64,000 nucleotides of DNA from Owenia fusiformis (taxonomy: Eukaryota > Annelida > Polychaeta > Sabellida > Oweniidae): assembly GCA_903813345.2 (NCBI GenBank), contig CAIIXF020000002.1:23140455-23204454 (forward strand). The letters are read 5' to 3'. Under the pieces are notes generated by a model. That model worked only from the letters and a program-made list of their open reading frames with translations. It had not been told where the DNA came from and did not search any database. Of the stretch, positions 26,279-58,090 are shown one piece after another (position 1 is the first letter of the stretch; every line of letters begins with the position of its first letter). The position numbers were made by a program, and so were the translations under genes.

Positions 26279-29200
26279 CTAAAACTTCCAGTTTGCTGGT
26301 GGTATACAAAGATATATATCTAGTCCCATTTCTTTCAATGCTTGCTGATGTTGTTTAAAATCGATGACGACATCATCTTTGTACCCGCACCACTCAACAT
26401 AGGAGTGTAAGTCCTTCTGTAAGGTCTCCTGATCAGGGTACGGGTAAACTGTCTCTCTTATATAACCTTTCACTTTGTCATTTGCATGCTGGGCAAAAAA
26501 TGTCTTCTTTAACATAATCACTTCTGCTCCTCTGCTTACCTGTAAAAAAGGAATAGAACTCAAAAAGGAGTTTTAAAATACACATGAAATGCATACCGGT
26601 ATGTACATGTATATTTTGATGTAAAAAATGGAATTTGGAAATAAAATTCTCAGATTTTTTTCAGATCGGATGTGAAATTCTAGAAATATTTTCAAAGGAA
26701 GTAGAAGTAGGGATCGAGAGTGAAAAATGTTGAAAGCAATATTTTTGAAAATCACGCCATTTGTTCCTTTAACATCCTAATTTTATTTTCCGAAAAAAAA
26801 GAAATGAGGCACCTCTTTTAGACCTGATCTAATAAGAAATATTGAAATGCTTGTCTGGGAATCATTTAGAAATGATGAGAGCAAATAATATTGCAAAATT
26901 CGGACAATTTGTATGAAACTTACTCTCAACTCTGACTACACTCCCAATCAAGAATACATAAAAATCTTTCAAGTACATGTATATTGAATTCTTACCAAAC
27001 TAAAGCTTGGTTGCTCATAGGCCAAGTCATCATCAAACTTAACAGTTGGGAGACCCTGGAAATAAACATATATGTTTTAGTTTACTTTGGTCTGCGACTT
27101 TTGAAAATATTTTTGGGCTTTAGATATTAGTTACTGTTTGATTTTTTTAATATTGGTGCCATTTCTCTTTTTGAAATGGAGGTAATTCATTACTAATGTT
27201 AAGGCCGAAATTTATAGTAGTGCTCCGCCCTGATCCACATGTGCTGGTTGTTCTTAAAATAAGTTTGTTCCAAAAGTGAATACTTCTAAATTAAAACTTC
27301 GTGTTAAATCAATTGAATTGTTGAATATTTCACCATACTGTGTATAGTGAAGCAGAACTTAACTTGCAGTTTTATTGGACAATCAGAATAACAAAAACCC
27401 AATGTACTCACAAACACATCTCTTGCCTGCAGGAGATCAACTTGGACAAACACCTCTTCATTTTCACCATCCTCCTCACAGGGTTCTTCTAACGTAGGTT
27501 TTTGACTCTCTGCTGTACGTGCACGTTGCTTCAGTATTGACTTATGTGTAGTGTCTTTTTGGACCTCTTGTCTATCAGCCTGACGTACCTTAAATATAGT
27601 CAGATAGTAGAAAGATATATATACTCCATACATGGACTGTAGCTAGGCGTGAGCCAGTGAGGCAAATATTACAGAAATATACATTAGACACTAGTATCTT
27701 TTTTTTTAATCTTTTTACTTGCTACATCACCAAGTCCGTCTAGGGGAATCTACAATTGGAGAACTTACTTATCACACCCCTACCAAACTTATTCACTAGG
27801 ATAATAAATACTCCTCACTATACTACACTGTTATAAACTCACCATATGTGGTTTACTCAGTTTAGGAAGAATCAACCTAGACATGGAGTACCCAGGTTGA
27901 CCCAGTTTAGATGGAGATTCAGGCTCAGGAGGTGGCGTGGGTAATTTTTTAGTTTTACGTTTACGTCGTATTTTCCTGATTCGTCTCCATTCTGAATCAT
28001 CGCTTTCGTGTGAGCTATCACTGGCTTCGCTGGTAGATTCCTTGTTAGCGTCATCAATGTTGAAGACAACGGTTTTGTGGGTGTCTTGGTTGAGATCTGA
28101 GTCACATATATTCTGAAGGGAGAACTGTCGATGTTAATATTTGATTCATCAGAATATACCTGATACCCGATGCTCTATACTTAACATTGTTTTTCTCTTA
28201 CAAAATGTATTTTCTACTGACTAAATGTTTTTGCTTGGGATCATCACAAGGTCAATATACTTAATAAATTTCTGTTTGGATGCCTTTAAACTGATTCTAT
28301 CATATAAGATGGTGAGTCAACCACTTACCCCTCCATTTTGGTGGAGCAGGAATTCTGTCATTGCACGTTGTATGGGGGAGGGGCAGGTAGGTAGGCTTTC
28401 ATCCCAGCCTTGCGATGCCCTGTGGCAGTCAACCTTTGGCCCTAGTGGAAAAATTTATACACATTTTATATATTTAAACAATGTACAACCTTTAATTATT
28501 GCAGTGCTGTATATGAATTGTGAATTCACATTTTTGGAAATGAATGTGCTAGCAAAACTCACGAAATACAAGGCTTTAACATGCAAAATGTCACCACCTG
28601 CCATTTGATACAGACAAAGAGCACCAACTGCTGACTACCATCCACAAAACAGTTGGAGACTATAACAATATGTCAACACTAATGGTGGTGACATAAAAAT
28701 GCATGATTTCATAGAGGTATTATTTACCCTGGGGCCGAGAAGATTAAGTTTACTACTCTCTGATTAGGAAAAATATGTACAGTTCAATGCTGATAAGATC
28801 TTAACCTCTTTGGTGCCGTTACGACATATATGTCGTTTCCCGTCTTCGTGCCATTACGACATATATGTCGTTTCAACGTGAGAATTTCTTGAAGTACAGA
28901 CCTTTGATTATATCTGGTGTCCCAAAAAAATGAGACACTTTTTGCCAAGTATTTTCTCGGCAACTGATGAACCAAATTTTTTGAAAATTTGTACAAAGTA
29001 GCCCAGGAGTATCGTTAGCAAGGTCCAGAAATATGACAAAGATCAGATAAATATTATGCGAGTATTAAGAAATTCAAGATAGCATGTCAAAATGTCCCAT
29101 ACCGGAGCAATACAATAAGAATTTTCATCGCGTTTGTACCAAAAATGGGAAGGAATTAGACAAGTGATTTCTCAGCAATAGATGAGCCAAATTATTTGAA

Positions 29201-32200
29201 AACTTTACTTGAGGCACTTTAGGGTATTTTCTGCTCGTGCTATAAATATGTAAGAGATTGGTTTCATATTATGTGTGTATTGTTGAATTAGAAACAGTAT
29301 GTAAAAATAACCAATATCGATGTAAATCTCACTTATTAATCCTTTTCATGCAAAATACCTTTCCGTATTTATTCTTAACAATATCACCTCAAATGAATTT
29401 TGAGAATGAATGGATTTTCGATATATGGGAAGAATGAAATGAATTAAGTAGACATGACACACAGACAAGCTATTTTGACTTATTTACAAATGCTATCACC
29501 TGATAGCTGGTGGAAACACTGTAGAGGTCTCATCGCATGGTATGGTATATCCGGTATGGGGATATTTGACATGCTATTTTGAATCTCTTATTACTCTGAG
29601 AATATTTACTTGATTTATTTTATATTTGTACAACTTGCTAATGATACTCTCAGGCTAATTTGTACAAATTCTCAGTGAATTTGGTTTATTAGTTGCCGAG
29701 AAAATACTTGGCAAAAAGTGTCTCATTTTTTTTGGGACACCCGATATATGCTTATTTATTTGTTTTATCAACCAATCAACCACACAGATAAATAAATGTA
29801 GGCAAAGTAGTTGCGTAGAACTTGTTTACAATGTATAATTTACCCAGAGAGAGGAGAAATCATGCATAGAAGCAGAGAAAAATTACCTGAATCAAATCTT
29901 TCGAAAATTTAGAGTAGTTGTAATGACCTTTCATGAGGGTTTCAATATGAAATAAATGAAGCATTGAAATATATATGTGACTCCAATTCCGATTATGCAA
30001 AGATTTTGCATTTGCAAAGAATTTTGATTTTTTTGAAAAATTCAAGTGAAAGGCAAATCAAGATTTGGACAGATTTGATCCCCAAAGCAAGCCACGAGTG
30101 TTCTTTTACCTGGGTCTGCTGTACCAAGTCTAGGAAACTGTTGAGATCTTTGGGGTGCTGACTGTGACTTTCTGATGGAGCTCAGCTTCACTGCCTTCAG
30201 CTTCTTCATCACCTGACATGTACCCTAGCAACACATTAGTTACATTAAACACATGTATCCTAGCAACACATTAGTTACATTAAACAAATGTACCCTAGCA
30301 ACACACTAGTTACATCAAATACATGTACCCTAGCAACACATTAGTTACATTAAATACATGTAGCCTAGCAACACATTAGTTACATTAAACAAATGTACTC
30401 TAGTAACACATTAATTACAATAAATATCTGTGCCCTAGCAAAACATTAGTTGCATTAAATACATGTACCCTAGCAACAAATTAGTGACATTAAATACATG
30501 TACCCTAGCAACACATTAGTTACATAAAACACATGTACCCTAGCATCACATTAGTTACATTAAATACATGTACCCTTGCAACACATTAGTTACATTAAAC
30601 AAATGATTCTAGTAACACATAATTACATTAAATATCTGTATCCTAGCAACACATTAGTTACATTAAATACATACATGTATACCCTAGCAACACATTAGTT
30701 ACATTAAATACATATACCCTAACAACACATTAGTTACATAAAATACATGTACCCTAACAACACATTAGTTACATTAAACACATGTAAATGAACCACACAC
30801 ATTATGCATGATTATACTGTAGTGTGATTCTGTACTTATATTTTCATTGTAAAATGAACAACTACATTGATTAACTTTATAGTTTAGTTTAGTTTAAGTT
30901 TAAAAATAGTTTATTTAAGTCACACACATATAATACAAATAAAATACATAAGATAAAATACAAATCAACAAATATGTCCAGCCGTTGCCGACTTATGAGT
31001 GACTACAGGTAAATGCGTCTTCTACGCCACATTTTAAAAATACATTTGCTTAAGATAAAACTATTACAGGAAGTCATTATATTACAATATTGAGCTAAAG
31101 CATTTAAATTAAAAAAATCTTTGTCAATTGATAACATGTATTCTAAAATTTCGTTTCTTAAATCTGTGTATAATGAACATTCTGTCAAAAAATGAATCTC
31201 TGACTCAACAACTTGAGAATTGCACATTTTACATAACCGTTCCTGTGATGGTGTTTTAGGATTAGTATATCGTCCTATTTCAATATTCAAAGGTAGTGTA
31301 CCACACCTTAAAGATGCTAAAACCTTTCTATAGGGTCTTGGTAAATTTGTTTCAACATAGTTTTCTGTATATAAACGTTGTTTATGTAATCTATAGGTGC
31401 GTAATTTGTTACCATTTTCACAGTTGTTCTTATCGTTCCATAGATCCCTGTACCAGTGTAATTGTTCTGATTCTACATATTTTCTATGAAACGATTTCAC
31501 CACGTTTTTTACCTGTGGTACCAATGTACAGTTAACAGAACTGATATTCCTAAGATCATTCACATTTAGAATTCTTTTGACCCATTGTTCCCACGATTTT
31601 TCTCTGTTTCTAGACCAATTAAATATTTTCTTGGTAAGTCTGTTTTGTTTCATATTTATGAGTCTACACCATAAACGCACTGGCTCTTTTAACTGTATAC
31701 TATAGAATGATGGCCAACCTATGTCGCCCTCTACAGCAGCGGTAGGAGAAAATTTGTTCACACCAAGAAAAAATCTGGCTGCTCTATTTTGTACACTCGT
31801 TAAAACTGCCTGTGGTTTGGTGCCCCAAACTCCCGCGCCATAAGTCAAAATTGGTAACACTAGTGATTTATATAATCTATCGAATACATCAAAAGAAAAA
31901 CCACCTGTTTTATATGATTTTGCAATCAATACACCGAGTGCTCTGTTTGCTGATGATGCCAATGTCTTGATTGCAGTCTTAAAAGTGAGATGCTCGTCAA
32001 AAAATAACCCTAAGTACTTGTATTCATTTACAACTGTGAGTGTGTTTAAATTGCACAAAAACATAAAATTAGATCTTTCTACATTGTCAAGCCTGAAATG
32101 TACCACCTGTGTTTTCTCATTGTTAACATTTAACCTCCAGTTATTACACCACTCAGTAAGTTTACATAACATGAGTTGAAGGTCATGTTCTGTGGCTGCA

Positions 32201-35200
32201 ATCAGTGCAATGTCATCTGCATATAATAATATCGACACATATTCACCTTCATTACATTCCACACCAAGGTTCAGTTGTTTAATTTCAGACACGAGGGAGT
32301 TAATATATATGGAAAATAATATCGGTGATAACTTACATCCCTGCTTGACACCTTTAGATATAGGGAACCAGTCAGTTAATACACCATTTATACGAACGGC
32401 ACCTTGTACATTTTCATATAGTGAAAGAATTGCCTTAAACATATATAATATCTAAATAATAAGTAGCCTTGCCCAACCAAATGATATGTAATTGTAAAAG
32501 AAACTATTGTTTTATTGGTCAAGTTTTCTTGGGGATGTATGCTGGACTAAGAATAGTTTGACTCACAGATTTCACGATGTATATCCATTCTGTTTTGTTG
32601 CTATCTTCTGCTATGATACACCCTCGCCTATAGAAACATAAGGGAATAAGAGTTGTTATCACAAATACTGTACCATAATCTATGAATTCAGAGAAGCAAC
32701 TTATATTTGAAAACATGAATATTTGTTAATATTTGTTGGTAATGGCATAATGAAAACAATATACATTTTGTGTTTTATGTTAGTGTAATGACACATTTAT
32801 CTTGCTACTGTTATAATTTGAGATATATAGGAAATGTGTAACATAGATAAACTTTTATATGGAATGTGTTCCTGCCAAACTTTAATTTGGAATGTGTACA
32901 GTTGTATGTTATCATGGGCTTTTAACAGTCCTTGAAAGCCCATGATGTAATCATTAACATAACTTTGTGATTTAAAAATAAATTAAAACTTCACATAATA
33001 TTTAGAATGGATTTTTCTCAGATATTATTCTCAGGATGGCAAAAAGAACTCAGGTGTTGCAACTTCTACAATTTCTACCTCTATAGCAGATATTACTATT
33101 GCAGATATTACCTGAATAAATGCAACTTACTTGTAGAAGTGGAATAAACATTGTTCCGGAGCTTCCTGTAAGATATCTAGCGGCCAATGGCGCATGAATG
33201 GAATTGTCCTGAAATAAATAGTTGACCATATAGAAATGAAACATTTGCCTGAATAATATACATTTGTAAATAATACTGCTTTAACATGCCATACTATGCT
33301 CAATTTAATGAAGTGTTATTTAATAAAAACTATTTGAAACACATTCAAAATATCATATCTGAACCTCTTTAAATAAATCCTCCCCCAGTATGTTAATAAT
33401 AAAAACACCCAATAACTGATTAAATTCAGTGATTAATCTAATCTACTCATGCTACAGTGCAAGCTATGTGCATGGACTAATGTAAAAATAGCCAAACTTT
33501 ATTTAGTATCGAAAATCCCCTTTGGGTCTCCTGGTATGATTCTTTTATTCCTATTTGTTCGTATTAGGCTTGATTAACTCCAGCCTTACAGTATTATGTA
33601 TATATACAGTTTATTGTGACATTAAAGCGTCAGTCACATTTAATCTATTAGCAACCGTATGGCAGCCGTAGCTTCCCAAAACTCTAGAGAAATATGCAGT
33701 ATAAAAATAGAGAGAAGCAGTATGACGTAGAATTTCTAAATCGATTTTGTGAAGATACGGCAGCATCATAGAGAAAATGTGACTGAGGCTTAACAAACAA
33801 GCAAAAGCACAGACACAAAACACATATTAATCTAATTAATTAGGCGGTGCTTAGTGATGCGATGCTACATCCTAAAATTAGCATGAGGTGATTCATTACT
33901 TAAGTAGCGGTAGATATATAGGGGATTTTCCTCCCATGAATATGTCAAAGAAAGCATCACGCCCTATCACCAACAAATCCATTGCTGTAATGCTTTTGAT
34001 ATCTGCTGTTCTCTCAAGCCTATACAGTAGAGCAAGCTCCTGAAATAGATGACACATAGGAAAAGTTTGAGACACATAGGTAATATAAGACAGAAACTGC
34101 AGTGATAGATATGTGAAATCAAAGATATGTAGCTAATAGTCAAGGTCCTCAAATTGATGACACATGGGGGACAGTCCATGACACATAGGTAAAGGCAGAG
34201 ACAGATATGGGAAGGCGAGGACATATAGCTGATAGTCAAATTCCTGTAATAGATGACACATGGGGGACAGTCCATTGCACATAGGTTAAGGCAGAGACAG
34301 ATATGGGAAGGTGAGGACATATAGCTGATAGTCAAATTCCTGAAATAGATGACACATGGGGGACAGTCCATTGCACATAGGTTAAGGCAGAGACAGATAT
34401 GGGAAGGTGAGGACATATAGCTGATAGTCAAATTCCTGTAATAGATGACACATGGGGGACAGTCCAAGACATATAGGTAAAGGTGTGACGCTTAGGTAAG
34501 TCAAAGACAGATAGGAAAAGGCAAAAACATGTAGGCAAGAAGAATCTTCTGAAATAGATGACACATTGGGAATAGTTCAAGACACATAGGTAAAGGCAGA
34601 GACAGATATGTGAAAGCAAAGATATGTAGCTGATAGTCAAGTTCCTGAAATAGACGATGCATGGGAAACAGTTCGAGACACATAGGTAAGAAAAGACTGA
34701 TATACATAATCTTAATAAGAACAGACTAGGGCACATGAAAGAGAGGCAGTGAAACATGGGGAATTTTAAGTAATTGAATGTGACACATTGGCAAAACAAT
34801 GACAAACGGGGAACAGAAAGCAACTGAATGTGACACATTTGGAAAAAAATGACACACGGGGAAGCAACTGAATGTGACACATTGTGCAAAACAGTGATAC
34901 AAAGAGAACAGTAAGCAGCCGAATATGACACATTGGGCAAAACAATGACACAAAAAGAACAGTAAGCAGCCGAATATGACACATTGGGCAAAACAGTGAC
35001 ACAAAGAGAACAGTAAGCAGCCGAATATGACACATTGGGCAAAACAGTGACACAAAGAGAACAGTAAGCAGCTGAATATGATACATTGGGCAAAACAATG
35101 ACACAAAGAGAACAGTAAGCAACTAAATGTGACACATGGCCCAAAACAGTGACACATATACTAACTTACTTTGCAAACTGTAGATATTCTGGAGAGGTTC

Positions 35201-38200
35201 CACCCATGAATATATTGAAAAAATCATCTCTTCGAATTACCAACAATTGCATTGGTGTAACAGTTACTACAGTAGAACGTCTTTCTAGCTTATATAGAAG
35301 GGCGAGCTCCTGGAATACATATATCCACCAAGAATAATTAATATCAGGTTTTGGCATATACTTAAGGTAGGCAATGTGGGATATTTTTGGTTTGTGTATG
35401 GTGTATACATACACAATTTCATGTACAGGTTTGACCCAGATAACTTCTACTCATCATACCTTAGTTACAATCATTGTGATTTTCTGAAAGAATCAAATAC
35501 TGAATACAACACAGGATTTTTTCCTTTTTGGGTAATCCTTTGTGGCTCTTTGGTTTGTGTCTCTTCTTGTTTTTACTCACAGTTTAATCTAATCTAATAT
35601 TCTAACTAGAAATGAGTCTGAGTTTGTTGAAAGAATACATACGCCAAATGATTCTCCCCTTTGAAGACGAGCTAGTAGGGACACCTGAGGTTCACCATTT
35701 CTGTTGCTAAGCTGTTTAACATGGGCTGAAAATAAACTTGACTGTTAAGAGTGGAAATCATGATACTATAAAATTTAAACACTTTGACATTATAACCCAT
35801 GTATCTATTGTCAAATATAGAATAGCTACTCTCTATTCTTATTGGGGAAACGGATGCATTGTTATCACTTTATTTCAATGGGTCAAGGTTGTGTTTTCTT
35901 GACACAGTAAAGTAAACTGTAAATCACATTTATGCTTATTCTCCAATCACAGGGCTCCAAGACCCAAAATATCTTTCTCTGTCGGAGGTACGGATTCTGG
36001 AATCTGGACACCTACTTTGGAGGAGGATTTACTCTAAAAGGGCCAATTCCAAGATGGGTTTTGTATTTTTGTGTCCATGCTTTAGACTGAAAGTATATTT
36101 ACCTAATCCAGCAAGGATAAAGTAGAAGTTGTCCGCAATGTGCCCCTGTCTTATGATGTACCTTTTAGGAGGTACCCTGCAATAAACAATGTATCAATCA
36201 ATCAATCAATTAATCAACAATCAATCAAAGAAACAAATGCAAGGTTGTAGCCACAATCTGAAAATAAGTGAGGCAAATTTAAATTAGGGAGGCAAATTAG
36301 AGGAAAATGGGAGATAATATCATAATAGAGAGGTTTCGATAAAAGTTGTTTCGAAATCAGTGACTGCAAATGTAATATCTGTTGCATCGTTGTAATCTGT
36401 ACATTATCAACTCAATATCTAGCTCTTGTGGGGCGGTGTTCTACAAACAAGACCCTTTAAGGTGGTTCATCACAGGAACGAGTGGATGATTTCATAGTTC
36501 TTATAAAAGTTTGAGTTTAGATATAAGGTTTAGAACATAGCCGTAGGCAGCGGGGGTTCGATGGGTTCGAACGAACCCCCGGTCAGGATTTCCCAAAATA
36601 TCATTTTGCGGAAAAATGCATATAACCAGAAATATTAAATTACTACAGTGTGCTATTTGAAAACTACATATGCATCAGTCCTGTTACTTTTGGAACACCC
36701 TGTATATGAACAGTAAATGATTTAATATTTGTTATGGTGAACACGAGAGCCTTATTTTGTTAAAAACATGTCATAGTGAAGTTACACTTCCCTCAAAACG
36801 TTTGGCAACCTCAGGCACTGGATGAGATTTAACGGAAGACCCAATAGCATGAGATTTTACATTTAAAATAACAATAATTTCGCACAATTAACTTAAAATC
36901 TGCTTCTTCTCTGACAAAATAACCCATCTTTGGCAATGGCTGAATCAGTCATTTGTAGGAATTTTGTTTTAAGCCAGTTCTGGTCCAATACGAAGTTATT
37001 GAAAGTTATTGAAAACAATGCAGACGTCTCATACTCCGAATGATTTTTACAACATTGACGAATAAATATCTGGAATAGTCGTAATATTGATGAAACACAT
37101 GTTCTTTCAAATGTGTACATCTCTGTTTTGTTTTATTTCAATTAAAATTTAAAATATTTCTTGGGACGTCCCTGGGGCTGGCGTAGTCCCGAAATCAATT
37201 GTGTTAAATAATCAAAAACGTTGTGAAATGAATTATTTAAAAGCGTATATCATTTATAAACACAAGCATTTGTTCAAATTTATTCATTCTTCCATTTGTT
37301 CAGTATTTATTTACCCATCACTTTTCCAAAGAAAATCAATCATTGCAAAAATGATTTAGTCTTTTCAGGTACACTCCACTCATCTAAGAGATTGTATAGA
37401 ATTCAAATTGTTATCGTTCCAGTTGAATTGCTCTCCATTTTCATGTTAATGTCATGATATGTTTAGCGAATAAATTATATAATAAAAACACATTGAAAAA
37501 TCATATGATATTAATCTTCAAATAATGAAGGCCTAATTTGTTATCAAGCCGTCTGAACTTAACAAAATAACAGTCGCTTGTATTTATATATGATTTATAT
37601 CCACTAAAACGTTTTTATTATCAATTGCGATTGATCTGCTCCGGGAGACTTACCACTGAGCTCCGGGGACGTCCAAAGAAATATTTTTAACTTTTTAAAA
37701 CAAAGCATAACCTAGACCCACTTATTTGAATAATATATATTTTTATCAGTAATACGACTATCCCGGATAGTTGAAAAGCCTTCGTGTAAACTTTGTGAAA
37801 AGTTATCATAGAAGAACGATCTTTCGGAGTATATGGGTGTTTGCGTCAATTTCAATAACCTTGCATTTGATCCGAACTGGCTTCCAACAAAATTCTTGAA
37901 AAACAATGATAAGCCATTGCATGAGGTGATTTATTTTGTCCTAGATGAAGTAGCTTAAGTTAAAGAATAAATTGTGCGAAATAGTTGATATTCCTTGGAA
38001 ACAAATCATGCTCCAGGGTCTTCCAGAAATCAGTCGAAATAATGGTGGATTCGGGGCAAATCAGATTTCAGGATATGTATCCAGTAAAAGATTCACCGAA
38101 ATATATATTGATGCAGAAAATTAATTATAAGTTGTCTGACTTTTTTGCATGGTTGCCTGTTTATTTTACTTTGTGAACATTAAAGTTACAAAGCTGCAAG

Positions 38201-41200
38201 GTCATTTTTGAAAATCATGTTTACGTCCTGTATTATTTCAATGGGAGAGGTTTCTTGATAAAGCCTATTACTTTCAGTAAATAAAAACATCATTTTTGTT
38301 AAATAAAATTCAAATTCAATTGTCTACTTAACTTAATGAAGGTACTAAAACATATGTAAAATGAATTATATTTCCCGTTCCAAAATAGTTTTTTCTTTAC
38401 ATATTATGCATACAGAATTCAAACCTAAAGATGCTTTAATACATAATCCAATGGGTTAGTTAGGATTCCCAAACTTTTGGAGGTAGTGTAGTTGTACAAA
38501 TTGCATTATTTGAGGAACCTTAATGAAGGGGGGGAGGGATTTGTGAATAACATAAAAATAGAACCCCCGGTCACCAAATCCTGGCTACGCCACTGTAGAA
38601 TGTATAAAAAGGCATATACACGATTATTGTAAACTTATAAATTGCATCTACCTTGTATGTGTTGAAAAAATATTTGTAACAAATTGGTAAGTTATATAAG
38701 TAAGTTATATAACTAAGTAACTTACATTTGAAACCATGCAACTTTGGCAAGTTTCATTTGCATGTGCAATGGATATTCAGCAAAAGATCGCAGTGTTTGT
38801 AAACCATGGATTACTTTGTTGCACATATCTTTGGTGCGGTGCTCAGGCCGCAGACTTAGTATTTTCTGAACATCTGAACTGATCGAAATCTGGAAAGTGA
38901 AAATAAGTTATTTTAGAAAATATTTTATAAAAAATGATACTCATCCTGTATCCGATTCAGTTATACTGACCTTACTCCCAGATCCAAGTGCATAATGCAC
39001 CCCCCCTATCAAAAGTTTGAGAACAACTTCAATGTTGGATGTTAAAACTTTTTTATGCTTACAGAGAAAAATTATTAACACATTCTCCAATCAGGGTTGC
39101 CAAGTTTTTTGGGAGTGAACATTTAGAATGTAAAACATACCTCTGTATTTGCTTTGTAGTATTTAGGATCAAAGGCCAGGCCTTCATTCTCCAGTAATTT
39201 CTGTAAACCTGCAGATTCCTCCACCTCATTTGCGATGTCAACAAATGATTTCAGTTGACGTTCAATATTTCCCGACATGTCACTGAAAAAAAGAGTTCTT
39301 AAAGTTGGCTTCAAGTCATATGGAATATATGGTATGGATTGATGATGGGCATTTTGGAAGTTCTGTCTATTTGAAGGGTACATTGTAATGTAATTCTTGA
39401 ATGAATAAGTTTCAAAATATATATGTGCTGTTGCATATGGGCTAGGGATTGATGATGGGCTTTTTGGAAGTTTTGTCTGTTTGAAGGGTACGTTGTAATG
39501 TAATTCTTGAATGACGAAGTTTCAAAATATATATGTGCTGTTGCATATGGGCTAGGGATTGATGATGGGATTTTTGGAAGTTTTGTCTGTTTGAAGGGTA
39601 CATTGTAATGTAATTCTTGAATGAATAAGTTTCAAAATATATATGTGCTGTTGCATATGGGCTAGGGATTGATGATGGGCTTTTTGGAAGTTTTGTCTGT
39701 TTGTAGGATACGTTGTAATGTAATTCTTGAATGAATACGTTTCAAAATATATATGTGCTGTTGCATATGGGCTAGGGATTGATGATGGGCTTTTTGGAAG
39801 TTTTGTCTGTTTGTAGGATACGTTGTAATGTAATTCTTGAATGAATACGTTTCAAAATATATATGTGCTGTTGCATATGGGCTAGGGATTGATGATGGGC
39901 TTTTTGGAAGTTTTGTCTGTTTGAAGGGTACGTTGTAATGTAATTCTTGAATGAATACGTTTCAAAATATATACAGGGTGATCAATAAATAAGGTAAAAG
40001 TATCTGGAATTTCTTCAGATTTTACCCAATCCTCATAAAATTTGCGCAGAATAATGTTCAAACATTATTGAATTGATATTTTAAGTTACAGATCAAAGTG
40101 ATGTGATTGGTTGAAGTTATGGTTGCCATAGCAACAGAAAGCACGAAGACCCGGGGCAACTATAAAAAAAACTAAATTTTCAGTCGAAACACTTATGATA
40201 ATATATTTCCAATCACAATTAAAATGGCATATCATATTCTTATTTCATACTTCATAACTGCTACTTAATGTCCTTTGTTTTTAACATATAGTTCATGTCT
40301 TCTACTCCAGTCGTTGAACACTTTTTAAATACATTTTCCCATAGCCTGCAAATTTTCAAGACAGCTAGCTTCAAGTCATCCCATGAGAAACTCTCTCAAC
40401 TCCCTCTTCAGTTCACCATGACAGTAAAATCATAAGGGGACAATTCAGGAGAGTATAGTACATGACCTAACAGTGGAAAACCCAGTGCTTCAATGGTTTG
40501 TACCGTGAGAATAGCATCGTGAGACAGTGCAATGTGAAACGTTTTGTAGGCCTCTTAGTCTTAGCTTCTTCCTCTTTTCTCTCATCAAATCTCTTCTGTG
40601 GGTATTTGTCTTATCATTGACCTGTGTCATAGACTTTCTATGATCACATCAGTTTTCATTATTTATTAATCTTTTCCATGACATCAAACATCGAATTTGC
40701 AAGAAAATATGTAACAATGTAAACAAAGTATTATAGAAACAATTAATGTTGGCACCCACGTTTATTTCTTTTTAGTTTGAAAAAGATGTGCTTTTTATCA
40801 TTTTTTGTTCAAAAAGGATGCAATGAAATTGCCCCGGGTACCCCCGACTCCAGTTGCCATAGTAACTATAATATTAACCAGTCAGATGGCAGAAATTATA
40901 TATTTACATGTTTTAATTTAGAAATGTACAAGGTATATTCTGACCAAATTTCAGGATGTTTGGACCAATATTGACAAAATACCAGATACTTTTACCTTAT
41001 TTATTGATCACCCTGTATGTGCTGTTGCATATGGGCTAGGGATTGATGATGGGCTTTTTGGAAGTTTTGTCTGTTTGAAGGGTACGTTGTAATGTAATTC
41101 TTGAATGAATACGTTTCAAAATATATATGTGCTGTTGCATATGGGCTAGGGATTGATGATGGGATTTTTGGAAGTTTTGTCTGTTTGAAGGGTACGTTGT

Positions 41201-44200
41201 GATGCAATTCTTGAATGAATAAGTTTCAAAATATATATGTGCTGTTGCATATGGGCTAGGGATTGATGATGGGATTTTTGGAAGTTTTGTCTGTTTGAAG
41301 GGTACGTTGTAATGTAATTCCTGAATGAATACGTTTCAAAATATATATGTGCTGTTGCATATGGGCTAGGGATTGATGATGGGATTTTTGGAAGTTTTGT
41401 CTGTTTGAAGGGTACGTTGTAATGTAATTCTTGAATGACGAAGTTTCAAAATATATATGTGCTGTTGCATATGGGTTAGGGATTGATGATGGGCTTTTTG
41501 GACGTTTTGTCTGTTTGAAGGGTACGTTTGTAATGTAATTCTTGAATGACGAAGTTTCAAAATATATATGTGCTGTTGCATATGGGCTAGGGCTTGATGA
41601 TGGGATTTTTGGAAGTTTTGTCTGTTTGAAGGGTACGTTGTAATGTAATTCTTGAATGACGAAGTTTCAAAATATATATGTGCTGTTGCATATGGGTTAG
41701 GGATTGATGATGGGCTTTTTGGACGTTTTGTCTGTTTGAAGGGTACGTTTGTAATGTAATTCTTGAATGACGAAGTTTCAAAATATATATGTGCTGTTGC
41801 ATATGGGCTAGGGCTTGATGATGGGATTTTTGGAAGTTTTGTCTGTTTGAAGGGTACGTTGTAATGTAATTCTTGAATGAATAAGTTTCAAAATATATAT
41901 GTGCTGTTGCATATGGGCTAGGGATTGATGATGGGATTTTTGGAAGTTTTGTCTGTTTGAAGGGTACGTTGTAATGTAATTCTTGAATGAATAAGTTTCA
42001 AAATATATATGTGCTGTTGCATATGGGCTAGGGATTGATGATGGGATTTTTGGAAGTTTTGTCTGTTTGAAGGGTACGTTTGTAATGTAATTCTTGAATG
42101 AATAAGTTTCAAAATATATATATGCTGTTGCATATGGGCTAGGGATTGATGATGGGATTTTTGGAAGTTTTGTCTGTTTGAAGGGTACGTTGTGATGTAA
42201 TTCTTGAATGAATAAGTTTCAAAATATATATATGCTGTTGCATATGGGCTAGGGATTGATGATGGGATTTTTGGAAGTTTTGTCTGTTTGAAGGGTACGT
42301 TTGTAATGTAATTCTTGAATGACGAAGTTTCAAAATATATATGTGCTGTTGCATATGGGCTAGGGCTTGATGATGGGATTTTTGGAAGTTTTGTCTGTTT
42401 GAAGGGTACGTTTGTAATGTAATTCTTGAATGACGAAGTTTCAAAATATATATGTGCTGTTGCATATGGGCTAGGGCTTGATGATGGGATTTTTGGAAGT
42501 TTTGTCTGTTTGAAGGGTACATTGTAATGTAATTCTTGAATGAATAAGTTTCAAAATATATATGTGCTGTTGCATATGGGCATATGGGCATATAGGGATT
42601 GATGATGGGATTTTTGGAAGTTTTGTCTGTTTGAAGGGTACGGTTGTGATGTAATTCTTGAATGAATAAGTTTCAAAATATATATGTGCTGTTGCATATG
42701 GGCATATGGGCATATAGGGATTGATGATGGGCTTTTTGGAAGTTTTGTCTGTTTGAAGGGTTCGTTGTAATGTAATTCTTGAATGAATAAGTTTCAAAAT
42801 ATATATATATGCTGTTGCTGATTGGCTGTATCCAGTATTGATTCCAGTTAATCCTTGTAACAAGATATGCAATTTTATTCTATATTCTCATATATGCAAA
42901 TGTTCAGAAATGCAATTTTATTCTATATTCTCAAATATGCAAATGTTCAGAAATGCAATTTTATTCTGTATTCTCATATATGCAAATGTTCAGAAATGCA
43001 ATTTTGTTCTATTCTCAAATATGCAAATGCATAAAAGCTTGGCTATTGATGTCTGAGGGCACGTTTAAGGAAAATATACCGAAAAATATGCTTTTGATTA
43101 GTCTTATTCCTGTTATGCCATTAAGCATTTTCAACTGTCGCATCAGCCAAAATCCCATATTGAATCTTTCATGATCATGAATGAAACACATGAAACATTT
43201 GAAGTATCACATATATTATCAAATCCTAAGCCAAAAATATGCTTTTATAAATCTTTTTCTATTTATTTTTATCCTTTTATTTATCCTTTTATTTATTTTA
43301 GTTAGCAGTAATTTTTTTACATTTGTCAACAGAAAACATAATTTGGCTTGACACCTGCATGTGAACAGTCTCAGTTTCTATTTCAAGTATTTTACTATTT
43401 ACTAGAGAATTCATTTTATGAGTCAACTGTTAATTTATTTAATGAAGCAGCTTACTTGATAAGGCTGATCCAGGAAAGACATATCAGGACTCTTCTAACT
43501 AGTTTCCTAAAATAGGCTAATGCCTGAAATAAATAAAAAACATGTTTCTTGAAGTAAGATCATGCCTGAAACGAGAAACATAAAGTACAAGGCATTAATG
43601 TGCAAAATGTCACTCCCTGCTATTTGTTACAGACACAGATTGCCACTTGTTACAGACACCAACCACCAAACACCGACTGCCAAAGTTGCCAAACACCATC
43701 CACAAAAAAAGTTGGAGACTATAACACTATATCATCACTTGTGGTGGTGACATAAAAAATAATCTTCAATAGATTTTAAAATAATTTGAAAAAAATACTA
43801 TATTTAAGAAACATCATTTAAAGAAATAAATAAACAACAACAAATAAAAAATAAATAAATAAATTAATAATAAGCTCACCTCTCCATCCTCTTCAAAGCG
43901 TGAATTCAGCTCCTTTGTGATATTTTGACTGTCCCTGAACAAATTACGTGCATTTAAGCCTCCCAAGAACCCAAAAGCAGCTTTTAATCCACCTTGAGCT
44001 GTTTTCATTTTTTGTTTCTTAGTTTTTCTATGTCTTTGTCTACTGTTCCTTAATGAGTTCATAATATCAGTATTCAAAGACATATTCGTCATTTTCCTCA
44101 TAAGTGATTCCTGTCTCGCTTCATCGACATTCCCGTGAAGAGACCAACGAGCGGGAAGTCGACTCCATGTTTTAGCAAATCTATTTTTAGCAGTCACAAC

Positions 44201-44566
44201 TCTTACATCAGATCGTACAGTTTTAACAGTTTGGTCAATTTTTGCTCTTTTTTCTCCAAGTAGTTTAGTAAGTTCATTGACTCCTTTAACAGTATTTCTT
44301 AAAGTTGTTTTCTTTCTGTGTACTGCACTTATTATTGAATTATCATCGTCATCTGACTTAACATTGATCTTATTTTGTTTCACTTGCTGAGTGAAACTAA
44401 AAAGCACTTTTTTAGGATTCGGTTTGGGAAATGTTAAATCACTTTCTGCATTATCGCTGGTTTTTAAGGTTTCCATTTGTATTCTTGGAGGAGAGGCATC
44501 TTCTTTCGCTCGTTTGACTAGACTTGGGAAACCACTCGCTCGGCGGGGAGTTATCTGGACCGACAT
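26279..44566 (-). CDS. CNBD2: CNBD2-like cyclic nucleotide-binding domain protein
   Basis: Minus-strand coding exons are: 44566-43880, 43523-43456, 39282-39141, 38889-38726, 36176-36103, 35725-35643, then 35309-35170 or 34039-33900, then 33208-33131, 32627-32567, 30212-30110, 28096-27843, 27588-27412, 27055-26996 and 26539-26279. All joins are GT..AG and in frame when one of the two 140-bp exons is used, giving 783 aa; human CNBD2 is 576. Residues 1-229 are a basic, low-complexity N-terminus. An FRKLVRRVLICLSW segment typical of this family follows. The cyclic-nucleotide domain spans about residues 340-450, with FYFILAG and the phosphate-binding cassette FGELALLY..ER. A second, partial domain follows (WIYIVKS), then a Lys/Arg-rich segment and a C-terminal ETVYPYPDQE region like CNBD2. 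The family has been linked to sperm and testis function. A leader exon ending at 45025 (GAG then GTGAGT) and an acceptor at 44671 are plausible. Ortholog naming is by pattern memory. Confidence 0.83.
28570..28697. repeat. Dispersed ATGCAAAATGTCACC repeat copy
   Basis: Contains AACATGCAAAATGTCACCAC, CTGCCATTTGATACAGAC, GTTGGAGACTATAACAATAT and GTGGTGACATAAAAA. It is the same family as copies near 4.1, 9.7, 43.6 and 47.1 kb. The AATGTCACCAC and GTGGTGACAT ends are inverted relative to each other, which suggests a small foldback element. Lies in a CNBD2-like intron. Confidence 0.65.
28813..28875. repeat. Doubled 16-bp palindrome ACGACATATATGTCGT
   Basis: The perfect palindrome ACGACATATATGTCGT occurs twice about 40 bp apart, each time inside GTGCC(G/A)TTACGACATATATG. 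It lies immediately left of the mariner-like element at 28913. Function unknown. Confidence 0.6.
28913..29744. mobile_element. mariner-like element with long TIRs and TA TSD
   Basis: The left end TCTGGTGTCCCAAAAAAATG and the inverted right end TCGGGTGTCCCAAAAAAAAT begin imperfect terminal inverted repeats of roughly 110 bp. TA flanks both sides (28911-28912 and 29745-29746). No transposase frame is visible in 832 bp. Lies in a CNBD2-like intron between exons 10 and 11. Confidence 0.75.
30216..30790. repeat. 35-bp minisatellite, about 16 copies
   Basis: The tandem unit is ACATGTACCCTAGCAACACA followed by TTAGTTACATTAAAT, with point variants and small indels. It begins only a few bases upstream of CNBD2-like exon 10 (acceptor at 30213-30214), so its units lie over the polypyrimidine and branch-point region of that intron. 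Confidence 0.88.
30895..32442 (-). mobile_element. 5'-truncated LINE with intact RT open frame
   Basis: A 479-residue open frame (32442 to 31003) encodes the C-terminal half of a non-LTR reverse transcriptase. It contains the fingers/palm motif GVKQGCKLSPILFSIYIN, the catalytic YADD box in ILLYADDIALIA, and a LYKSLVLPILTYGAGVWG motif. The end carries a CCHC-like knuckle (CKMCN...EIHFLTEC). The endonuclease and the first RT motifs are missing, so the copy is 5' truncated and inactive alone. The 3' end reads as short TAAAC repeats at about 30885-30905, a common LINE tail. It resembles CR1/Jockey-type elements. It lies in the CNBD2-like intron between exons 9 and 10, in the same sense as the gene. 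The lack of stops suggests a young insertion. Confidence 0.88.
33626..33789. mobile_element. TTAA-flanked MITE with TCAGTCACATTT ends
   Basis: Left end AGCGTCAGTCACATTT and right end AAATGTGACTGAGGC are inverted repeats, each next to TTAA (33622-33625 and 33790-33793). A related pair of ends, GGTCACATTTG and CAAATGTGAC, occurs at 47280-47372. The TTAA flanks suggest a piggyBac-type target, but the ends do not match a family I know. Confidence 0.55.
33900..34039 (-). CDS. CNBD2: Alternative exon 7b of the CNBD2-like gene
   Basis: This 140-bp exon encodes the second half of the cyclic-nucleotide pocket, starting ELALLYRLERTADI and ending IFMGGKSPIYL. The acceptor is ATCTATTTCAG before GAGCTT, and the donor is AA then GTAATG. 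The copy at 35170-35309 has identical length and phase, and 28 of 46 residues match. At the cassette position where the other copy has Thr, this one has Asp (residue 419 in the joined protein). Splicing it after exon 7a would put it out of frame and hit a stop, so only one of the two can be used. No internal stop or damage is seen, so I treat it as functional. Confidence 0.82.
34041..34720. repeat. 96-bp minisatellite carrying decoy 3' splice sites
   Basis: About seven units with start-to-start spacing of 108, 96, 96, 96, 113 and 96 bp. On the minus strand each unit contains a variant of GTGTCATCTATTTCAGGA, the same sequence that forms the true acceptor of exon 7b at 34040-34041. The rest of the unit (CAGCTATATGTCCTCACC and so on) is unlike the exon. 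The array occupies the downstream half of the intron between the two duplicate exons. Long open frames through it are repeat artefacts. Confidence 0.85.
34740..35155. repeat. 51-bp minisatellite, about 8 copies
   Basis: The unit contains GACACATTGGGCAAAACAGT and ACAAAGAGAACAGTAAGCAG, with a 51-bp period over most of the array. It fills the upstream half of the intron between exons 7a and 7b and stops about 15 bp from the exon 7a donor. It shares the word GACACAT with the adjacent 96-bp array. Confidence 0.88.
35170..35309 (-). CDS. CNBD2: Alternative exon 7a of the CNBD2-like gene
   Basis: This 140-bp exon starts ELALLYKLERRSTVVT and ends IFMGGTSPEYLQFA plus two bases. The acceptor is TATTCCAG before GAGCTC, and the donor is AAA then GTAAGT. 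It completes the phosphate-binding cassette begun by exon 6 (ESFG), with Glu407, Arg416 and Thr419 in the places used by PKA-type domains (GELAL...R.AT). It is the closer match to a canonical cassette of the two alternatives. Confidence 0.85.
36191..36232. repeat. (CAAT)n microsatellite
   Basis: Repeats of CAAT with small interruptions just outside CNBD2-like exon 5 (acceptor at 36177-36178). Confidence 0.7.
36538..38605. mobile_element. Composite inverted-repeat element in CNBD2-like intron
   Basis: The left edge (ATAGCCGTAGGCAGCGGGGG, then GAACCCCCGGTCAGGATTT) and the right edge (GAACCCCCGGTCACCAAATC, then CTGGCTACGCCACTG) share words of a G/C-rich family. Inside at about 37146-37695 is a second pair of inverted ends, AATATTTCTTGGGACGTCCC against GGGGACGTCCAAAGAAATAT. 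I read it as nested or composite elements. The exact borders are uncertain and no transposase frame is seen. Confidence 0.4.
39300..42830. repeat. 110-bp satellite-like array, about 22 units
   Basis: The unit is 110 bp and contains GTGCTGTTGCATATGGGCTA and GAAGTTTTGTCTGTTTGAAG, in intron 2 of the CNBD2-like gene. About 6 units lie left and 16 right of a mariner-type insertion at 39974-41015. Within the right block the two-unit segment 41366-41586 is duplicated almost exactly at 41587-41807, including its private variants (GGACGTTTTG, GGTTAGGG, an extra T). This indicates recent unequal exchange. The first unit starts within about 20 bp of the exon 3 acceptor. Several minus-strand open frames of 70-150 residues are periodic artefacts. 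Confidence 0.93.
39974..41015 (-). pseudogene. Dead mariner/Tc1-type transposon inside the satellite
   Basis: The 1042-bp element has perfect 34-bp terminal inverted repeats starting CAGGGTGATCAATAAATAAG and is flanked by TA at 39972-39973 and 41016-41017. Removing it with one TA restores an unbroken 110-bp unit, so the borders are certain. On the minus strand around 40550-40270 a broken transposase C-terminus is readable, with HDAILTVQTIEALGF and YSPELSPYDF corresponding to the last catalytic region of mariner transposases. In-frame stops follow, so it is inactive. Confidence 0.88.
42862..43030. repeat. 44-bp minisatellite, about 4 copies
   Basis: The unit is about 43-44 bp and contains AATGCAATTTTATTCTATAT and CTCATATATGCAAATGTTCAG. 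Lies in CNBD2-like intron 2, just right of the 110-bp array. Confidence 0.8.
43590..43755. repeat. Dispersed ATGCAAAATGTCAC repeat copy
   Basis: Contains ATGTGCAAAATGTCACTCCC, TATTTGTTACAGAC, AAAGTTGGAGACTATAACA and GTGGTGGTGACATAAAAAA. It is the longest of five copies because an inner ATTGCCACTTGTTACAGACA segment is duplicated. Lies in CNBD2-like intron 1. Confidence 0.65.
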
Positions 44567-48705: not shown

Positions 48706-51700
48706 TCAATTCACCCCAGTTAGCGTTTCCCCACTCTCCCAGTGTACATTTGTCAACAAATGTGTTTTGAGATATCGCAAACTTTTAAACTCCTTATTAC
48801 ACTGTGTACATAGGTATGTTTCAGCTTTCTTGTTATGCTGCTCTTTCATGTGAGTCCCCAGATTATTTTTGAATTTAAACTTTTTCCCGCATATATAGCA
48901 CAACAATTTGACACCAGTGTGTCCCCGTTGATGATCTTCAAGTTTACTCTGTGATGAAAATGCACGATCGCAAACACTACAGCGTTTATCGTCAGCTTTT
49001 ATCTCATGTTGGCGTTTGATGTGCCTATCTAACAATTCTTTTGTTGCAAAAGATTTAGGACACTTGAACGTGCATTTGAACATTTTTTCAACATTGTCAT
49101 GTTTTTTACGATTATGAGTTGCCAAACCTTTAAGAGTTGAACACAATATTCCACATTCCAAGCAGCGAAAAGATTCACCATCTTTCGACGAATGAAATTG
49201 TTGAACATGAGCAGTTATCTCACCCTGATCCTTAAAAGTCGCTTTACAATATTTGCATGTGTTATTTTTAGTCACATGTTTTTTTAAGTGAACTAACATC
49301 GACCAACGAGTCTTCAGAACAACCTCGCAAATTCCACATGTGAACGATGTCATCTTTATAGTCTTTGAATACTTTAGAAGACCAATGTTCTTTTTCACTT
49401 TAGGGACTATTGATTCAAAATCACCCCCATATCCTTTCAATTCAATTTCTTCAATATTGGATTCTGTTATTGGCACTGAACTGTTGGCTTTGTCTACAGC
49501 AGTATGTTCAATCCTATCTGATACAGTGTCGTCACTTCTTATAATGTCAACATTGATGGCTGTTATATCTTCACTGTTGGTTGTAATATCTTCATTTGGG
49601 ATGACATCTTTCTTTTCAGTAATATCCTTATTTGCAATATTATCTTCTTTATCTTTATCTGTCATGATATCATATTTTGTATTGATGTCGTCATTTGTTG
49701 TAATATTGCACACAGTATTGTTCAGGTCAGAGACCTTTAGTTCCGATCCAGAATCTGGCTTATCACTGGTTTTTGACATATTTAAATATTTAGGATCACA
49801 AGCTTCGTTTTCATTTAATTTCACAACAGTGTCTTCATCTTCTTTATGTTGAGAAACTCCCTTGTTTCTTACATCAATGTCAATTTTCAGTTGATCTTTA
49901 TCACTATTAGACTGTACCACATTTTCAATTTCAATTTGGTCCATAACTTTTTTCAATTGTTTACCAATTCCGACTTGATTCATATTATTTTCAGTAACGT
50001 ACACTTCAATTTGATCTGTATCATTCTTAGATTGTACATCAGTTTCCATTTGACCATTGTCTTTTGTCACTTGTACACCCGTGTCCACTTGATTAATTTG
50101 ATCTGCATCCTTTTCAGATTTTACACCAGTATCCACTTCGATTTGATCTACATCATTAGATAGTAAATCATTTTCCATTTGATCATTGTCTTTTTTCAAT
50201 TGAACACCGATATCAACTTGTTTCATTTGATCTTTCTCCTTTTCAGATTTTACAACAATATCAACCTCAATTTGATCTACATCAGTATCAATTTCCATTT
50301 GATCATTGCCTTTTTTCAAGTGAACACCAGTTTCCATTTGATCACTGTCTTTTTTAACTTGTACACAGGTATCTACTTGTTTCATTTGATCTTCATCCTT
50401 TTCAGATTTTACACCAGTATTCACTTCATTTAGATCTACATCGTTTGATTGTTCATCAGTTTCCATTAGATCATTATCTTTTTCCAGTTGTGCACCAGTG
50501 TCCATTTGTTTCGTTAAATCTTCATCCTCATTTGATTTTACCCCTGTATCCACTTCAATTTGATATGTACCACCAGATTGAGTATTGGTGTCCTTCTCAT
50601 TTGGAGCAAGGTTTGCTTCAGCGATAGCATCATTTTCACTGTCCTTTACATTGAGGAACTTACCATCAACACGTCCCTCCTTTGAATCATTTCCACTTAC
50701 TTTACTAGCTCCATGTTTCATTAGAACATGCTTTCTTACGCTGCTCTTTTTTCGGAACATTTTGCAGCAAATGGTACAGCTAAACTGTCTGATCAACTCT
50801 GATACGTGGCCATGTTTCATGTACTCCGCCTTGGTGATAAAGCATTTGCCACAAATCTGACACTGAAATGGAAACCAGCCTCAGTTATTGTACATGCAAC
50901 ACGCCCAGAGGCTCTGAATAGAGTCCTAGCTAAACTTCATGGGATCTTTATCGTAGTTGAATACAATGAGTTGTATGCAAAAATATCAACAGGCTTTGAC
51001 TTGAAAATATAATGTTATATGAAGTTCATGACAATAGGTTGGTTTTGCAAAAATAACAATATAACATAATAATACTACATGTACATGTATATGGATTTGA
51101 CAACTATGGGTTGGTAAATGCAAAAGTATCAACAGGCTTTGACTATTACCACTTATATTGGCTATTACCTGGTAAAACTGGATCTCATTACGCTTGATGT
51201 GAGCATTTATATGAAGCTCCAAGGCACGTTCCTTCACAAACACCTCATCACAGGTAGGGCAGGTAAAGGTCTGGAAATACAATTAATAAGTCACATCCCC
51301 CTCCAAATGTTATGTAATATTATACAAATATTGAATTCTGTAGAGTTGAATATCTGTATATATTTATGAAGGTGTATTCACTGCAGCCCGAAGGGCGAGG
51401 TGAATACATCTCTCAGAAATATATACAGATGTTAAACGTTCTCAGAATTCAATATTTGTTTTATTATTTCCTCATTAAAGTAGTACACAATATTAAGGTT
51501 AGAAGTACACATTATTGATATGATATGACGTCTAGGTTCAACGTATTTCCAAACGTTTGCCAATATTCTGTACATGTTATAATTCACGATCTCAGTCACA
51601 CCATGGATAAATATTAGATTCCGAACTTCCATGTTGAAGTCCATAGTCTTCGTGGTTTGATATGTTGAATACATTTGTAAATTCTTTATCCCGTGTTTGT

Positions 51701-57700: not shown

Positions 57701-57703
57701 CAT
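48706..57703 (-). CDS. Large C2H2 zinc-finger protein (about 23 fingers)
   Basis: Probable nuclear DNA-binding regulator. Minus-strand coding exons are 57703-55925 (593 codons), 53108-52299 (270), 51270-51169 (34) and 50862-48706 (718 plus stop), all phase 0 with GT..AG ends; total 1615 aa. Met1 follows an acceptor at 57713-57714, so a leader exon lies upstream. Exon 1 has a Gln/Ser/Thr-rich region, a lone finger (CNTC), an LSQP pentapeptide tract and four fingers. A further finger is split by the intron (CGQC then SK|VFSSEEFLKIHLEDC), which proves the exon join. Exon 2 adds seven fingers, exon 3 one, and exon 4 two, then an acidic repeat region, then seven more. The acidic region has units of about 41 residues with words such as DQIEVDTGVKSEKD and QMKQVDTGVQLKKDNDQME (about 50540-49850). 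Some fingers are CCHC variants. I do not recognise a vertebrate ortholog and no KRAB, BTB or SCAN domain is seen. Confidence 0.85.
51333..51465. repeat. Inverted repeat in zinc-finger gene intron
   Basis: TTGAATTCTGTAGAG...GTATATATTT...GGTGTATTCAC is followed by GTGAATACATC...ATATATACAG...CTCAGAATTCAA, forming an imperfect hairpin with arms of about 50 bp. A further GTGAATACAC lies at about 51841, so the whole of 51371-51852 may be an element. Confidence 0.5.
53210..54542. mobile_element. 1.33-kb mariner-like element, TA flanks
   Basis: Left end CAGGGTGTTAAATAAATA and right end TATTTATTTGACACCCTG are inverted and flanked by TA. An inner inverted repeat of more than 100 bp also exists: GTACCCCACACACAATTTTG near 53229 against AAAATTGTGTGTGGGGTAC near 54310. 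So the right terminus may come from a different family member; it matches the solo end at 12490-12668. No transposase frame is readable. It lies in the intron between the first two coding exons of the zinc-finger gene. Confidence 0.65.
54640..55485. repeat. Tandem 110-120-bp repeats ending in (GGAC)n
   Basis: Diverged units contain GCCATCTTGAAAATTC, CATCATATAAAATTTGAACC and GTATTTGAGTTATCAAAGAT. The block ends with GGACGGACGGACGG and TCAAACTTCGTTCGGTGGGA. It is the inverted counterpart of the element at 17650-18640. Lies in the first coding intron of the zinc-finger gene. Confidence 0.65.
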
Positions 57704-57779
57704 TTCGCAAAGCTGAAACACATGTACAATAATCTGGCATGAATTAGTTGTAACCACAATATGTTTATATGTTGAAATT

Positions 57780-58090
57780 AGAATCAAGCTAAAACTTAAA
57801 TGCACAATGCACCTTTGAATAACAGTGCTTATTTGTTGAATTTAAAAGCTAAAATTTAAATACACAATGCACCTTTGAAGAAACAGTGCTTATATGCTGA
57901 TTTTAGAAGCTAAAACTTAAATACACAATGCACCTTTGAATAACAGTGCTTATGATATGTTGATTTTAGAAACTAAAACTTAATACACATTTGCACAAAA
58001 GAATAACAGTGCTTATCTGTTGAATTTAAAAGCTGAAACTTAAATACACAATGCACCTTTGAATAACAGTGCTTATCTGTTGATTTGATC
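57780..58090. repeat. About 61-bp minisatellite, 5 copies, upstream of zinc-finger start
   Basis: Units contain ACACAATGCACCTTTGAATA and ACAGTGCTTAT, with a period of about 60-63 bp. It lies directly upstream of the acceptor of the first coding exon, so it is intronic if the leader exon lies near 58.3-58.7 kb. Confidence 0.85.

Follow-up and report, generated by a model that had tools for sequence, protein, structure and literature searches.

The mutually exclusive use of tandem exons is well described, and exclusivity can be caused by short introns, by mixed spliceosomes, by the decay of frame-broken messages or by competing RNA structures (PMC6071210). An analysis of 236 human cases stressed ion transporters (PMC9741552), and the terms cyclic nucleotide, CNBD, PKA and PRKG are absent from its main text. 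In a model of mouse CRIS (CNBD2), a cyclic-nucleotide receptor of sperm, residues FGE277-279 contact the ribose and R288 contacts the phosphate; the R288Q change abolished the response, and 8-Br-cGMP was without effect (PMC3854790). In PKG I, Thr193, which directly follows the phosphate-binding Arg, bridges phosphate and guanine, and its replacement by Ala or Val raised the amount of cGMP needed 27-29 fold (PMC3080414). Here we analyzed a stretch of 64,000 nucleotides (nt) from the annelid Owenia fusiformis (assembly GCA_903813345.2, contig CAIIXF020000002.1, positions 23,140,455 to 23,204,454 of the forward strand), referred to as the window, which contains a CNBD2-like gene with two 140-bp exons, 7a and 7b, for the same part of its ligand pocket. 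Judging from the DNA, it is highly likely that the two exons have been kept as a mutually exclusive pair.

The name CNBD2-like had been given to this gene in an earlier, sequence-only reading of the window. In both isoforms, the protein contains F405-G406-E407 and R416 (Glu+9), and this spacing of pocket residues fits that of mouse CRIS. CRIS was nevertheless reported in 2013 to be missing from mollusks, nematodes and selected protostomes (PMC3854790), and the name is thus used here by resemblance.

Two pocket exons, either of which keeps the reading frame

Exons 7a (35309-35170) and 7b (34039-33900) lie on the minus strand, each with CAG before it and GT after it. Their starts read GAGCTCGC / GAGCTTGC, and both end in AA. 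They share length, phase and GT-AG ends and align without gaps, with 92 of 140 nt and 28 of 46 residues being identical. The exons, their ends and the residue count are as the sequence-only reading had given them, and our recount again yielded 28 of 46. Its frame arithmetic was reproduced as well: with 7a or with 7b the gene model encodes 826 amino acids (aa), and a message containing both is broken in frame and stops after residue 476. Beyond that reading, we observed that double skipping also breaks the frame, with a stop after residue 440, that the exons differ at pocket residue 417, and that a second gene, on contig C295, carries a comparable pair. Because the exon length of 140 bp is not divisible by three and only two such exons are present, the frame rule fits exclusivity.

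We propose that 7a and 7b arose long ago by tandem duplication of a single coding exon and that each message would have to carry exactly one of them, so that messages with both or neither, having an early stop, should be destroyed by nonsense-mediated decay. The early stops in both of these combinations would equally suit a pair that acts mainly as an expression valve, where the balance of exactly one exon versus both or neither sets the level of productive mRNA through the same decay pathway. We regard such a valve as highly improbable, since a poison exon need not retain a well-conserved alternative pocket and the amino acids of 7b appear to be under selection (see below).

When the peptides of all 16 exons were compared with the window by tblastn, exon 7 was the only one with a second copy at an expect value (E) of <0.01; the next-best second copy was that of exon 3 (E = 0.034). 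No third copy of exon 7 was found in the window at this threshold, with one match at 0.045, and genome searches with 7a and 7b returned three matches each, namely, 7a, 7b and a paralogue, P2. No processed copy that could reveal the spliced form was recognized among 11 genome matches of exons 4-6. We rejected an assembly artefact as the source of the pair, since a collapse or haplotype duplicate would show far more than the observed 66% nucleotide identity. Self-comparison of the window also listed many tandem-repeat and zinc-finger pairs, together with another same-strand pair (22530/23526) that looked repeat-like on reading and was set aside.

Selection on exon 7b

The differences between 7a and 7b are distributed 14/10/24 over codon positions 1/2/3, with the third position being favored. 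Nonsynonymous divergence (dN) was 0.29 and synonymous divergence (dS) was 1.76, giving a dN/dS ratio of 0.17; resampling of codons placed the corresponding ratio of proportions (pN/pS) in a 95% bootstrap range of 0.21-0.57. We ran 20,000 neutral simulations from each exon, with as many nucleotide differences as in the real pair. None of those starting from 7a retained 28 identical residues (13% were stop-free), and none of those starting from 7b both retained 28 identities and remained stop-free (15% were stop-free). Under a harder null, which lets one copy drift freely during half of the time, 28 identities and freedom from stops were retained in 3.9% of 2000 simulations. Free drift of one copy for half the time is thus unlikely rather than impossible as the source of the pattern.

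P2, the nearest paralogue in this genome, has a single such exon (C2:9465515-9465364, 152 bp, same phase), and no second pocket-exon copy was seen between its neighboring exons. Over the 37 ungapped codons, five residues are private to 7a and five to 7b, and the differences between 7b and P2 are distributed 17/9/23 over the codon positions. Identities to the paralogues P3-P5 numbered 16, 14 and 14 for 7b and 19, 18 and 18 for 7a. In a tree of ten pocket peptides, 7a and 7b formed a clade apart from P2 (ultrafast bootstrap, 97); these sequences are short, and gene conversion could mimic such a clade.

Several observations weigh against the use of 7b and would suit a decaying, unused duplicate, with 7a alone being spliced in. 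With an approximate matrix, the 7b donor, GTAATG, scores below every other donor of the gene; counting plain matches (5 of 9) puts it level with the donors of exons 6, 9 and 13. Taken alone, exon 7b scores 14.5 bits on the Pfam family PF00027 (cyclic-nucleotide binding), compared to 21.7 bits for 7a, both being below the cut-off. Its dN to P2 is slightly higher (0.43 versus 0.34), its branch in the tree is longer (0.39 versus 0.26), and it adjoins tandem arrays that bear near-copies of its acceptor. In addition, dS between 7a and 7b is near saturation, with two of three dN/dS methods failing, and dS to P2 was not computable. On the other side stand the intact frame and the two splice ends of 7b, the low dN/dS ratio of the pair, the five private changes in each copy and the outcome of the half-time drift simulations. 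We therefore consider an unused duplicate very unlikely; in all probability, 7b is used, as one of two mutually exclusive exons. Anatomy, the arithmetic of the frame and purifying selection speak for the earlier claim of mutual exclusivity, which is very likely to be right.

Gene model and surroundings

The model was built by hand from splice signals and reading frame and comprises 15 exons plus the alternative 7b, extending from 44566 to 26279 on the minus strand of the window.

Exon 1, 43880..44566, minus strand: 687 bp, start codon at 44566, open frame from ATG and GTGAGC donor
Exon 2, 43456..43523, minus strand: AG/GT ends and frame
Exon 3, 39141..39282, minus strand: AG/GT ends and frame
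Exon 4, 38726..38889, minus strand: AG/GT ends and frame; second half similar to the P2 exon C2:9466623-9466711
Exon 5, 36103..36176, minus strand: initial strands of the cyclic-nucleotide domain (the spliced protein matches PF00027 over residues 355-440)
Exon 6, 35643..35725, minus strand: last residues ...SFG, directly before the pocket Glu
Exon 7a, 35170..35309, minus strand: 140 bp, ELALLYKLERRSTVV..., pocket Glu407, Arg416, Arg417 and Thr419
Intron 7a-7b, 34040..35169, minus strand: 1130 nt
Exon 7b, 33900..34039, minus strand: 140 bp, ELALLYRLERTADIK..., pocket Glu407, Arg416, Thr417 and Asp419, donor GTAATG
Exon 8, 33131..33208, minus strand: frame; a single P2 exon (C2:9464888-9465026) matches exons 8 and 9 jointly
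Exon 9, 32567..32627, minus strand: frame and comparison with P2
Exon 10, 30110..30212, minus strand: AG/GT ends and frame
Exon 11, 28329..28441, minus strand: AG/GT ends and frame
Exon 12, 27843..28112, minus strand: AG/GT ends and frame
Exon 13, 27412..27588, minus strand: AG/GT ends and frame
Exon 14, 26996..27055, minus strand: AG/GT ends and frame
Exon 15, 26279..26539, minus strand: AG end and frame to the stop codon, which it contains

PF00027 was the sole Pfam family above cut-off in the 826-aa protein, with no kinase, channel or other known domain reaching that level; PF10459 (Peptidase_S46) scored 16.9 bits, below its cut-off of 22. The long N- and C-terminal parts accordingly contain no Pfam family above cut-off. 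When spliced, the domain scored 59.2 bits with 7a (within 826 aa) and 57.3 bits with 7b (within 146 aa), the PF00027 cut-off being 27.5.

The introns of the gene contain further elements. Intron 9-10 includes a 482-aa open frame (31003-32451) that by eye resembles the reverse transcriptase of a non-LTR (long terminal repeat) retrotransposon. An element of about 1 kb (39971-41018) with terminal 104-nt inverted repeats, which are 76% complementary, sits in intron 2 with a block of a 110-bp tandem array on either side. Elsewhere in the window, the minus strand at 48706-57841 carries three long open frames with repeats that by eye are C2H2 zinc-finger-like.

Pocket residues and predicted ligand preference

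Exon 7 codes for Glu407, for the phosphate-binding cassette with Arg416 and for the sequence that follows, which judging by alignments to PKA and PKG would reach roughly to where helix C starts. Each exon would thus supply the ligand-gripping part of the domain, and because of this the two proteins would differ only in how the pocket reads and reports its ligand. The ribose-contacting Glu407 and the phosphate-contacting Arg416 are retained in both versions. From 417 to 420, the residues read RSTV with 7a and TADI with 7b, in agreement with the pocket residues named in the earlier reading. Residue 417, Arg in 7a and Thr in 7b, is a notable pocket change and corresponds to PKG Thr193, which confers cGMP selectivity on PKG (PMC3080414). 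At residue 419, 7a has Thr and 7b has Asp; by alignment the equivalent of this residue is Asn in the second site of PKG1 and also in the second site of a PKA-regulatory-subunit-like frame (named by similarity) of this genome. With Thr417 at the Thr193 position and Asn at the 419 equivalent of the second PKG1 site, the 7b pocket looks more PKG-like than dead. In searches against solved structures (best 60 of 136 and best 60 of 123 matches), the 7b domain matched PKG1 best (67.7 bits), with PKA RI-beta at 52.5 bits, and the 7a domain gave 64.9 bits with PKG1, 61.6 with RI-beta and 55.4 with 5j3u.

Four points count against the reading of 7b as a used, PKG-like pocket exon. The 5j3u entry, named Protein Kinase A, scored 61.2 bits in the 7b search, so that the preference for PKG is not clean. 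The isolated first site of PKG, with its Thr193, favors cGMP just about two-fold (PMC3080414), and conversion of the second PKA site to cGMP preference took two changes, single ones leading only to loss of selectivity (PMC3765617). Finally, Asp419 is absent from the other nine pocket segments compared, which have Thr or Asn there. Position 417 itself varies among related genes, with Thr also present at its equivalent in P2 and P6. This genome has six further places where a pocket segment is akin to that of exon 7, and there the phosphate Arg is followed by T (C2:9465), S or R (C2:26037), E (C5:17488), F (C5:20585), T (C7:34078) or A (C8:17701).

The unusual Asp419, whose negative charge so close to the phosphate might reduce binding, would be in line with a scenario in which both exons are used and the 7b pocket is non-binding, yielding an unresponsive or dominant-negative isoform. 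This scenario appears unlikely to us, since Glu407 and Arg416 are retained, since the loss of response tested in CRIS came from changing that very Arg (R288Q; PMC3854790), and since the 419 equivalent in the second PKG1 site is Asn. The earlier reading had expected altered or no binding for 7b; loss is unsupported given the retained Glu407 and Arg416, whereas an altered ligand preference between 7a and 7b is plausible in view of Thr417. For 7b, a shift in ligand preference thus seems likelier than a loss of binding. We propose that both versions should bind a cyclic nucleotide and that 7b, with Thr417, would favor cGMP more than 7a does.

Possible means of exclusivity

Two of the described causes of exclusivity were rejected for the CNBD2-like gene, too short an intron because 1130 nt separate 7a from 7b, and a U12-type cause because the gene has no donor of U12 form. 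Neither crowding nor spliceosome mismatch would therefore enforce the proposed exclusivity, which has to be counted as a point against it. Tandem arrays with 51-bp and 96-bp units make up 743 of the 1130 nt of this intron, and the word TGTGTC occurs in it 23 times, compared to 0-1 times in each of five other introns counted. Five upstream near-copies of the 7b acceptor retain CAG and a sixth has GAG; these near-copies may be decoys or mere repeat growth.

Alternatively, intron RNA structures that compete in the docking-site/selector manner could impose exclusivity. Between the 7a-7b and 7b-8 introns, the best duplex (-61.7) was stronger than those of all 20 shuffles (mean -53.4, standard deviation 4.2), as this mechanism would predict. 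Yet this signal comes from one of three intron pairs, amounts to about two standard deviations and lies in repeat-rich DNA, and the other two pairs were equaled by 17 of 20 and 12 of 20 shuffles. We thus rate enforcement by such structures as quite unlikely.

A second tandem pair of pocket exons

Across the whole genome, PF00027 had 83 matches, among which neighboring pocket matches were paired by eye. Besides the pair in the window and an array on C6 (see below), one place had two adjacent pocket copies, namely, the 25-kb contig C295.

C295 exon A, 5294-5118: 177 bp, a multiple of three, open in phase 0
C295 exon B, 5085-4870: 216 bp, a multiple of three, open in phase 0

Joined to the neighboring exons, A or B matches PDB entries of SLC9C1, the sperm-specific sodium/proton exchanger (8otq, 8xpq and others), across the domain, with E values of about 1e-49 with A and about 1e-45 with B; the best of these entries are, we presume, from sea urchin. 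The two exons are spaced by 32 nt. Because an intron of 32 nt is too short for splicing, A and B would be mutually exclusive by crowding. Over the last 26 codons, they differ 10/4/18 by codon position. Exon A has R-T-A-T and exon B has R-A-A-T, so that Thr again occurs in one version only; two pairs would be too few for a rule. In a light check of the rest of the C295 gene, an ion-transport match below cut-off was obtained for one long frame and no match for another.

In the array on C6 (L004:1609-3799), the terminal part of a cyclic-nucleotide-domain exon is repeated together with its donor in twenty tandem copies of 110 bp, in a gene that we take to be NTE/PNPLA6-7-like. All 20 units (77 or 74 nt) are open in one frame, with 10 distinct versions and 33 nt between them. 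We considered it as a third cluster of exclusive exons and set it aside, since its units start mid-exon; it is probably a minisatellite that arose from the exon end and its donor.

Comparison with known systems

Usually, it is the gene being expressed that determines whether cAMP or cGMP is the ligand. The presence of Thr in one exon of each pair raises the idea that splicing might switch second-messenger selectivity, between a cAMP-tuned and a cGMP-tuned version, in both the CNBD2-like and the SLC9C1-like receptor. We advance this idea tentatively and think it more doubtful than probable. If it is true, one receptor could change its ligand or its sensitivity by splicing, with all else held constant. 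Two ready-made pockets would also provide a natural swap experiment on what sets cAMP/cGMP preference, and a similar architecture in a second gene of related signaling context would make the idea testable in one animal. Both receptors belong to families tied to sperm or cilia. Annelid Cnbd2 has been listed as a cilium-related hub gene of the larva (PMC10380512), and cilia as well as sperm may thus be relevant.

The window protein resembles CRIS/CNBD2 in its single recognizable cyclic-nucleotide domain, its FGE motif and the Arg nine residues past the Glu. It differs in having two alternative pocket exons and long terminal parts devoid of Pfam families above cut-off, whereas for CRIS one pocket is described, which responded to 8-Br-cAMP and not to 8-Br-cGMP (PMC3854790); the word "splice" is absent from the main text of that paper. 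With PKG I, the 7b version shares a Thr directly after the phosphate Arg, as in Thr193 and T317, but the window protein has no kinase domain, and the equivalents of the PKG contacts Leu172/Cys173 would fall in the constant exon 6. The SLC9C1-matching gene on C295 is alike in having tandem exons for the pocket part. It is unlike the CNBD2-like gene in that its exons of 177 and 216 bp are multiples of three and lie 32 nt apart, and crowding rather than frame would exclude one of them.

Of the open-licence papers listed, judged by title and the opening of the abstract, none described a pocket-swapping exon pair in a cyclic-nucleotide domain, which does not imply absence from print. With described mutually exclusive tandem exons, 7a and 7b share the arrangement of adjacent homologous exons of equal length and phase, of which one per message is admitted by frame (PMC6071210, PMC9741552), and they likewise appear to be old duplicates with both copies under selection. 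They differ from that class in that their splicing is predicted from DNA and in that it is a cyclic-nucleotide domain whose ligand pocket would be swapped.

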